Source of the DNA: Luteolibacter ambystomatis
GTDB taxonomy: Bacteria; Verrucomicrobiota; Verrucomicrobiia; Verrucomicrobiales; Akkermansiaceae
Length of the DNA: 64,000 bases
Assembly: GCF_018137965.1 (NCBI RefSeq)
Contig: NZ_CP073100.1
Span: 4,227,754-4,291,753 of the forward strand
Direction: 5' to 3'
Position 1 is the stretch's first letter. Every line of letters begins with the position of its first letter. The position numbers were made by a program, and so were the translations under genes. The notes under the pieces were generated by a model. The model saw nothing but the letters and a program-made list of their open reading frames with translations, did not search any database and was not told the DNA's origin. Of the stretch, positions 46,438 to 48,801 are shown piece after piece.

Positions 46438-47655
46438 CTATTCCGTGCGTTTCACACCCTCCACACGGGTGGCCAACATCAGGAGGGCGGACACCCACGC
46501 CAGCAGCAGGGTGATCAACCAGAGCACGACCGGACTGCGCTCATAAATCGCCAGACCCGCCGCGGGTCCAAACAACGTTGCAGCGCTCCAGGTCATGGAC
46601 ATCACGCCCTGATAGCGGCCGCGCATGTCATCCGGCGAAAGCGCGGCAAGATAACTGTTACTGATCGGGAAGGAACAAATCTCCCCCAGCGTGAGTACCA
46701 CCATGCTGGACACCAGCAACGGCACGCTGGCACCGAGCATGTTGATGCCGAGGCCCACCCCCACCACGGCATAGCCCGCCGCCATGATCCGCGAGGGGGA
46801 GAACCGGCGCGTGACAGACGTGAGCGGCAGTTCGAACAACACCACCAGCAGCCCGTTGAGCGAAAGCAGATAGCCATACGCGTGCTCGTCCAGGCCCGCC
46901 TGCTTCGTCGCCTGGAGGCTGAAGCAACTGCCGATCTGGGTGAAGGTCAGCGCGATGAGAAAAGAGGCCGCCACCGCCAACAGGAACGGCCGGTTGCCAC
47001 GCATATGGGAAACGGCGGGCAGCCAACCCTGGCGCTCGGACTTGGGAACGACCACGTTCTTCAATCCGAACCACGCCACGAACCCCATGATCAGAGTCGT
47101 GAGCGCGTCCCCGATGAACAGCGGCGCAAAGCCGAAACGCACCATGAAACCCGCAGCCGCCATCCCGGCCGCAAAGCCCGTATTCACCGCCCAGCGTTGG
47201 CACGAATACGCGCGCGTACGCAGCTCCGGCGGAACGAGATCCGCGATCAGCGCGCCCACCGCCGGATTGTAGAGCGCGGTGAGCACCGCCATGATGAAGA
47301 TGCAGCTCGTCAATGCGGCCATGCCGTGGGCCTGCGACAGCAACAGCATGAACACCGAACTGCCGAAGCAGGACAGCATCACCACCGGCTTGCGGCCCAG
47401 CTTGTCCGTGAGGTGCCCGCCGACCAGCCCCGCCAGCATCGAACCCGCACCATACGCACCCAGCACGATGCCGATCTTCGCCTCGGAATAATCCCCGTGC
47501 CCCGCTTCGCGCTCGTGGCGCAGGTAGAGGGTCATGAACGGCATCACGAAATTACCGAAGCGGTTGATGAGCGTGCCGCCGAAAAGGATCCAATACTGCG
47601 AGGGCAGGGCCCGCAGGTCCTGCCACAGCGTGGTATCGTGTCGTGACGCGTCCAT
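46438..47655 (-). CDS. MFS transporter
   Basis: 405 aa from the ATG at 47653-47655 (MDASRHDTTLWQDLRALPSQYWILFGGTLINRFGNFVMPFMTLYL); longer frames upstream add hydrophilic sequence unlike the family. Twelve hydrophobic segments are readable. The family A-motif between helices 2 and 3 is GGHLTDKLGRKPVVML. RTRAYSCQRWAVNTGFAAGMAAAGF is like the MdtH/YceL-type drug or metabolite exporters. Substrate unknown. It is a single gene transcribed leftward. Confidence 0.88.
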   Translation of the reverse strand: MDASRHDTTLWQDLRALPSQYWILFGGTLINRFGNFVMPFMTLYLRHEREAGHGDYSEAKIGIVLGAYGAGSMLAGLVGGHLTDKLGRKPVVMLSCFGSSVFMLLLSQAHGMAALTSCIFIMAVLTALYNPAVGALIADLVPPELRTRAYSCQRWAVNTGFAAGMAAAGFMVRFGFAPLFIGDALTTLIMGFVAWFGLKNVVVPKSERQGWLPAVSHMRGNRPFLLAVAASFLIALTFTQIGSCFSLQATKQAGLDEHAYGYLLSLNGLLVVLFELPLTSVTRRFSPSRIMAAGYAVVGVGLGINMLGASVPLLVSSMVVLTLGEICSFPISNSYLAALSPDDMRGRYQGVMSMTWSAATLFGPAAGLAIYERSPVVLWLITLLLAWVSALLMLATRVEGVKRTE

Positions 47656-47944
47656 TCCAACCGGAACGGCAAGCACCCGTCCGCTCGCCGCGAGTGGGGC
47701 GGAAATCGCGATGAAGTTCCATGTTATTTCGCCGCGATTTTCGGCGATTCCCTCTCCGGTCCTTTCGCTTGGATTGCAGAGCCGGAGAGCCCCTCCCACG
47801 CGAGAAGGTCGTGACTGGATCAGGGCCATGCAAAGCCGCGCGTCCGCCATGCTTTGATGTATCCCCAGATCATGGGAACGCGATCACGTGATATCATCGC
47901 GGCCGATTTTGTGACAGTCTTTATTTGTCAGCGCGAGGTCCCCG
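47656..47944. promoter_or_regulatory. Intergenic region with small palindromes upstream of candidate sRNA
   Basis: About 290 bases with no convincing gene. ATCACGTGAT (47883-47892) is a perfect 10-bp palindrome, and TGACA (47912-47916) with TGTCA (47926-47930) forms an inverted repeat just before the candidate small RNA. These could be operators for the RNA or for the leftward MFS gene. A promoter could not be assigned with confidence. Confidence 0.35.
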
Positions 47945-48050
47945 CCGGACGCCGACCTTTCTCCCCCCGGAAAGCACTACTCCCCCCGACCCCTTTAGAT
48001 CGGCGGATGCCGGAATCCCCCCGTTCCGGCATCCGCCGATCGGCTTTTCA
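47945..48050 (+). ncRNA. Candidate C-rich-loop small RNA with terminator hairpin
   Basis: The octamer TCCCCCCG occurs three times: 47962-47969, 47981-47988 and 48016-48023. The first is exactly the loop of a hairpin CTTTC (47957-47961)/GAAAG (47970-47974). The third is exactly the loop of a perfect 18-bp stem (47998-48015 with 48024-48041), followed by GGCTTTTC like a terminator. The middle copy is in an unpaired linker. C-rich loops of this kind are known in small RNAs that pair with Shine-Dalgarno sequences. The 5' end is not defined and the U-tract is short. No ORF covers it convincingly. Confidence 0.5.
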
Positions 48051-48116
48051 GACCCAGCAACCAAACTCGGTATGAACCTGCCGATGTCTGCGAAAAAGTC
48101 GGAATGATCCAATCCG

Positions 48117-48318
48117 ATGGAAATCCGCCACCTGACAACGTTGGTGTGCGCCCTGATCACCAGCTCCCCGTTGTGCGCCGGGGAATTCCGACAGGATACC
48201 CTGCTGGCCGCATTTGACACCCGTGAAACTCTAGAGACTTTGGCTGCCAGACTTGAAAGAGCACGCCGACGTGATTCGTCCCCATCTGGCGGCCATTCCG
48301 GATGCCGACGAAAAATAA
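48117..48318 (+). pseudogene. Possible frameshifted small exported protein
   Basis: From the ATG at 48117 the frame encodes MEIRHLTTLVCALITSSPLCAGEF, a signal-peptide-like start, then RQDTLLAAFDTRETLET. At about 48235-48240 the better-looking frame shifts by one base and continues LWLPDLKEHADVIRPHLAAIPDADEK to a TAA at 48316-48318, just before the terminator of the atp operon. Read together the product is about 67 aa. Without a shift the frame runs on into the antisense of atpC. It could be a true frameshift, a sequencing error or chance, and no family is recognised. Confidence 0.3.
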
Positions 48319-48387: not shown

Positions 48388-48801
48388 TCAGGAATGGTTG
48401 CGGCGCTTGAGGCGGAGCTGCGCGAGGTTCTTCGCGATGACGCCCTGGAGGTGGGCGACTTCCTCGGCATCATCCGCGTGGTCGAGGGACTTGAGGGCCT
48501 CTTCAGCGCGATGGATGGCGGCTTCGGCCTTCGCTTCGTCGATCTCGGCTTCACCCAAGGCGTTGTCGGTGAGGACAACGACCTTCTGGTCGGTGACTTC
48601 GGCGAAGCCGGAACCGATGGCGAGGTGGACGGTCTGGCCAGCCTTCTGATAGCGCAGTTCGCCGGGCTTCAGGCCGGTCACGAGAGCGGCGTGATGTTCG
48701 AGGATGCCCAGTTCGCCATCTTCACCGGGAAGGTAGACGTTCTCGACGGTGTCCGAGAACACCTTCTTTTCCGGAGTGACGACTTCGAGATGGAGGGCCA
48801 T
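48388..48801 (-). CDS. atpC: ATP synthase F1 epsilon subunit
   Basis: 137 aa. The N-terminal beta domain is canonical (MALHLEVVTPEKKVFSDTVENVYLPGEDGELGILEHHAALVTGLKPGELRYQK), with the conserved GELGIL and H-A-x-L/V motifs. The C-terminal helical hairpin (EIDEAKAEAAIHRAEEALKSL ... LAQLRLKRRN) is present, so inhibitory control by the epsilon C-terminus is possible. It is the last gene of the operon, 88 bases downstream of atpD, and is followed by a terminator. Confidence 0.96.
   Translation of the reverse strand: MALHLEVVTPEKKVFSDTVENVYLPGEDGELGILEHHAALVTGLKPGELRYQKAGQTVHLAIGSGFAEVTDQKVVVLTDNALGEAEIDEAKAEAAIHRAEEALKSLDHADDAEEVAHLQGVIAKNLAQLRLKRRNHS

Follow-up and report, generated by a model that had tools for sequence, protein, structure and literature searches.

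Predicted C6 small RNA genes in Luteolibacter

We find by sequence comparison that the site at 47945-48050 of the window (the whole 64,000-nucleotide stretch of Luteolibacter ambystomatis DNA analyzed here) is one copy of a real and previously uncatalogued family of small-RNA genes, the products of which, herein termed C6 RNAs, are probably regulators. We infer their transcription, start site, co-regulation and base-pairing targets from the DNA.

The octamer TCCCCCCG starts at 47962, 47981 and 48016, exactly where the original prediction had placed it, and both hairpins and the tail GGCTTTTC are also as it described them. There is no overall excess of this octamer in the window (four matches versus 5.96 expected by shuffling), and the non-random aspect is the presence of three copies on one strand within 62 bases (~2e-5 by a rough Poisson estimate); such clustering, with two of the three exactly forming loops, is not due to chance. 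The first hairpin has a CTTTC/GAAAG stem, in which 47957-47961 pairs with 47970-47974 and to which the predicted fold adds a closing U-G pair, while the second is a perfect 18-bp stem (47998-48015 with 48024-48041) that has the octamer as its loop. The segment 47940-48056 folds far more stably than its shuffled versions (z = -6.5), and the corresponding value for the predicted transcript is z = -4.7. There are 77 terminator-like perfect hairpins in 1.26 Mb of the same genome and only that of the window copy has a C6 loop.

The features of the locus are listed in Table 1. The range originally put forward, 47945-48050, marks a real site but leaves out both the promoter block, at 47878-47918, and the stem-loop that forms the 5' part of the RNA, at 47927-47956, the latter containing a degenerate fourth motif at a position where several sister copies carry CCCCCC. 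Within the core promoter block TGTGACAGT resembles an extended -10 element and may function as one, and a sigma-70 consensus promoter scan found nothing at the window locus. It had also been stated that no open reading frame explains the site. Reading frames do overlap it, e.g., 47854-48075 (+) and 47921-48220 (-), but a conserved protein is ruled out because length differences among the homologous copies break the frame.

Table 1. Predicted features of the C6 locus and its neighbors (window positions).
Feature	Positions	Strand	Basis
Operator-like near-palindrome ACGCGATCACGT	47878-47889	+	Conserved 5' of nearly all copies
Core promoter block GGCCGATTTTGTGACAGT	47901-47918	+	Alignment: GGCCG nearly invariant, -10-like TGgGAtA/TGtGACA
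C6 small RNA, predicted transcript of ~123 nt	47927-48049	+	Ends set by the conserved GTCAGCG (5') and the tail of the terminator (3'); fold
5' stem-loop; its fourth motif is degenerate, TCCCCG (47939-47944)	47927-47956	+	Fold, sister-copy comparison
Second hairpin, loop TCCCCCCG (47962-47969)	47957-47974	+	Fold; hairpin also present in sister copies
Linker motif TCCCCCCG	47981-47988	+	Unpaired probability 0.93
Intrinsic terminator: 18-bp stem, loop TCCCCCCG (48016-48023), tail GGCTTTTC	47998-48049	+	Fold, covariation
MFS-type transporter gene, divergent neighbor	46438-47655	-	MFS label read from sequence; same neighbor in G050
atpC-type ATP synthase epsilon gene, convergent neighbor	48388-48801	-	Same neighbor in G050

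Distribution of the family

A DNA search of the 5.32-Mb genome from which the window is taken (G000) revealed further copies at 82-85% identity, and other members of the genus also yielded close copies. With a covariance model built from 18 copies of the 3' module, seven family copies are identified in this genome, and a model restricted to the upstream block independently identifies the same seven loci together with one weak extra match. Six base pairs of the 3' module are changed on both sides, a level of covariation that none of 500 shuffles reached. A covariance search in relatives, which the original prediction had suggested as a check, gives matches in up to 37 of the 73 genomes of the genus, an upper figure because some of the matches that lack C tracts (e.g., L099 and L098) resemble ordinary GC terminators. 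The promoter model has about 15 matches in each of two further genomes (G064 and G068) and has matches in two of the 16 genera sampled in the Akkermansiaceae, in the same two of the 50 genera sampled in the order, and only in the genus of the window among the 198 genera sampled in the phylum. Within the samples searched the C6 genes, as the promoter model defines them, are thus confined to two Luteolibacter-like genera of the Akkermansiaceae. A cmscan of the whole window against Rfam at the gathering cut-offs gave no match, and 6C RNA was also not among the results of a permissive scan of the locus.

The contigs with matches are labeled as Luteolibacter, Akkermansiaceae and Verrucomicrobiaceae genome assemblies. 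The contigs L103 and L105 are labeled Prosthecobacter debontii and Akkermansia muciniphila, respectively, and their genomes are placed in the genus of the window, so that the public labels look wrong. Some genomes contain tandem arrays of two or three copies ~160-320 bp apart (L009/L033 in G052:C80, L010/L034 in G020:C696, and L158 in G004:C1:424500-426800), and the units of the last of these are near-identical.

Shared architecture

The copies are stand-alone intergenic units of ~105-150 nt, with a median RNA length of 122 nt (50 copies). They are preceded by a promoter block with the consensus aCGcGATcaCG-N~10-TGGCCG..aTGgGAtA, the last part of which also occurs as TTGTGACA, and either aTGgGAtA or TTGTGACA would serve as an extended -10 element. 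The start region is GTCRSCGcGA, with transcription predicted to begin at GTCRSCG, and throughout the family the RNA ends in an intrinsic terminator that has a C tract as its loop. Each RNA contains from two to four, usually three or four, C5+ tracts with the consensus UCCCCCC[G/A]. The total over 50 copies is 162, versus 31 after shuffling, a count that is partly selected because the model used to collect the copies itself includes one linker tract as well as the loop of the terminator, while the internal tracts and the copies found by the promoter model alone (L144-L157, L227 and L245) are free of such selection. The mean unpaired probability in the predicted folds of the same 50 copies is 0.88 for the C tracts and 0.34 for other C residues.

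The terminator stems are much more variable than their loops. The outer stem 8-mers have 53 distinct sequences among 59 copies, although the hairpin boundaries vary, while a C5+ tract is kept at the terminal loop in 52 of the 59; L098, which looks like an ordinary GC terminator, is still included in these counts of 50 to 59 copies. By this comparison the stems diverge in a compensated manner and the C tracts are retained, which is the opposite of the outcome, loops lost and stems kept, that according to the original prediction would have pointed to a plain palindromic repeat. Its proposal of a gene for a small RNA with C-rich loops is therefore supported by the family, the promoter block and the retention of the C tracts.

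Translation starts, chaperones and candidate targets

Target statistics were obtained with a home-made gene caller from 1.26 Mb (24%) of the genome, comprising L164-L223 and the window. In this sample there is no enrichment of a Shine-Dalgarno (SD) signal (GGAG/GAGG) at translation starts, GGGG and GGGGG runs show depletion over the 20 nt that precede them, and GGGGGG is found within 24 nt of the start codon in none of 473 genes. The sequences upstream of starts are instead C-rich, with C at position -1 in 63% of genes, and CCCCCC is not enriched at the start codons themselves (two genes observed versus 10.6 expected). Hfq, the presence of which defines the Hfq-dependent type of trans-acting sRNA, was found in none of the three genomes searched (G000, G050 and G068), in which positive controls were detected, and CsrA was likewise found in none of the three.

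No target mRNA was identified. The G7 tract of the guaB leader, the most attractive candidate, was considered as a target and rejected, as it appears to lie within the promoter spacer and is not conserved (11 of 30 leaders checked). The promoter elements of guaB apparently lie no more than about 35 nt from the ATG, which points to very short leaders.

Proposed function and alternative explanations

We propose, with a probability of about one half, that the locus is one of a set of paralogous, co-regulated genes for trans-acting sRNAs that use repeated C6 seeds to act on selected mRNAs containing G tracts. A transcription factor binding to aCGcGATcaCG would switch on all of the siblings together, the C6 RNAs would accumulate, and any of the redundant UCCCCCC[G/A] seeds could then pair with a limited set of mRNAs that have accessible tracts of the [C/U]GGGGGGA type, altering their translation or decay without Hfq, with copy number setting the dosage. 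Two points weigh against such pairing: G tracts are unenriched at starts in the 1.26-Mb sample and the guaB candidate failed, and repeated identical motifs in many co-regulated copies would fit a protein sponge equally well. A sponge is the strongest rival, and here the single-stranded CCCCCC sites would titrate a C-tract-binding protein by the logic of CsrB/RsmZ with another motif and another protein, possibly a translational regulator given the C-rich mRNA leaders near the start codon. This is possible although we rather doubt it. The two to four identical motifs in the loops and linkers of each RNA, the multiple co-regulated copies and the turnover of the stems are all consistent with it, as are the C-rich upstream regions, the lack of G-tract enrichment at starts, and two MarR-family genes of the second genus (see below) that have a similar promoter block and carry CCCCCC directly before the ATG. 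Against it are the failure to find CsrA in the three genomes or to identify a C-tract-binding protein of this kind, the lack of CCCCCC enrichment at start codons, and the fact that in the characterized C-motif sRNAs of the literature cited herein the motif pairs with mRNA. An extension of the sponge, which we consider unlikely, is that a factor, perhaps of the MarR type, fires the sibling C6 RNAs as decoys for a C-tract-binding protein that also reads C-rich mRNA leaders, in bacteria that lack Hfq, CsrA and evident SD use; if true, this decoy regulon would be a lineage-specific Csr-like system built on cytosine tracts.

The original prediction envisaged binding of the C-rich loops to the SD regions of many mRNAs. 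C-rich sRNAs such as LhrC do block SD sites (PMC4132741), but as the 1.26-Mb sample shows no SD enrichment, no GGGGGG near the starts and depletion of the shorter G runs immediately before them, this reading has become very improbable for the C6 RNAs. That the site is merely a dispersed palindromic repeat, of the REP/REPIN type or a terminator repeat, with no RNA function is scarcely credible, even though the family is multicopy, has a perfect palindrome and is arranged in tandem in some genomes (L009 and L010): stems are replaced while C loops stay, there are few copies per genome, and the promoter block is conserved about 100 bp from the palindrome. Moreover, G050 contains two family copies at exactly the place of the window copy, between the MFS-type gene and atpC, the neighbors are conserved between G000 and G050 at three further loci, and in the aligned orthologous intergenic regions of these two genomes conservation is concentrated on the promoter block, the tracts and the terminator, all of which argue against a mobile palindrome. 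That the unit is an attenuator, or the 5' leader of the gene after it, is just as improbable. In relatives a few matches to the promoter model (L238, L243 and L248) are indeed located upstream of protein genes that have C-rich leaders, but those copies in G000 with neighbors called are followed either by a convergent gene or by a further copy, and for the window copy this possibility is refuted by the orientation of the neighboring gene.

Comparison with known C-rich sRNAs

Our preferred reading, seed pairing by redundant C tracts, has precedents in three systems. The closest match in design is LhrC1-5 of Listeria monocytogenes, which is encoded by several co-regulated genes and has three redundant UCCC motifs in a loop, a linker and the terminator loop (PMC4132741). 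The C6 family similarly has sibling genes with a shared promoter element (seven in G000) and a C motif that is repeated in loop, linker and terminator loop, but the LhrC motif is UCCC with an SD target, and no sequence relation between the two was detected. The 6C RNA is a stand-alone sRNA of ~100 nt, the hairpin loops of which contain six cytosines (PMC4046766), and as B11/6C it uses either loop to act on a run of six G residues in the 5' UTR of eccB4 in mycobacteria, where no sRNA chaperone has been identified (PMC10470900). The C6 RNAs are also stand-alone, and that of the window likewise has two C6-looped hairpins (Table 1), but they differ from 6C/B11 in having no Rfam match, usually three or four motifs including one in the linker, multiple gene copies, their own promoter block, and a location in a phylum other than that of the Actinomycetes. 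Actinobacterial matches to a C6-hairpin pattern are without the promoter block or repeated C tracts and look coding or due to chance. The sX13 RNA of Xanthomonas is a 115-nt, Hfq-independent sRNA with C-rich loops that targets mRNAs with G-rich 4G motifs (PMC3771888); its loops are 4C, however, and 4G near start codons is common in the Xanthomonas genome, in contrast to the depletion of G tracts just before the starts sampled here.

The CsrB/RsmZ sponges carry many identical short motifs in their loops and linkers. In this respect the C6 RNAs resemble them, but the CsrB/RsmZ motif is GGA and the protein is CsrA, while the C6 family has a C6 motif and no CsrA gene was found.

Little is known of sRNAs in the Verrucomicrobiota, and our literature search turned up no sRNA paper for this lineage. 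The C6 family represents a clear and testable example with built-in redundancy. It would extend C-rich-seed regulation, which is well known in Gram-positives and Xanthomonas, to a genome with no SD signal at its sampled starts and no detectable Hfq, one in which the usual explanation of SD blocking cannot apply.

Possible other members of a proposed regulon

The promoter block and its candidate operator give a handle on the controlling signal. A gene for a MarR-family protein at two loci of the second genus (L238, G185:C47 ~23292, and L243, G143:C9 ~101356) has a promoter block resembling that of the C6 RNAs, and its ATG is immediately preceded by CCCCCC. This protein is a candidate for the operator-reading transcription factor, and the arrangement suggests that the controller may be autoregulated and that C tracts may be linked to translation starts. 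A weak match to the promoter model occurs at both L246 (G000:4938501 region) and L247 (G050:2233426 region), and the conserved sequence that follows it, a few hundred bases long, has C6 tracts and a long GC-rich hairpin and matches nothing in Rfam. It may represent another, longer RNA belonging to this regulon. Another weak match (L248, G050:785701 region) is located 5' of a gene with a signal-peptide-like start, the leader of which has several C5+ tracts. At L153, L239 and L137 (in G068, G011 and G009, respectively), a similar promoter block is followed by CGTAAGGGATAGCACA..CCCCCC.. and a GC hairpin, and this unit, which has no Rfam match, is a different short RNA-like element common to the three genomes.
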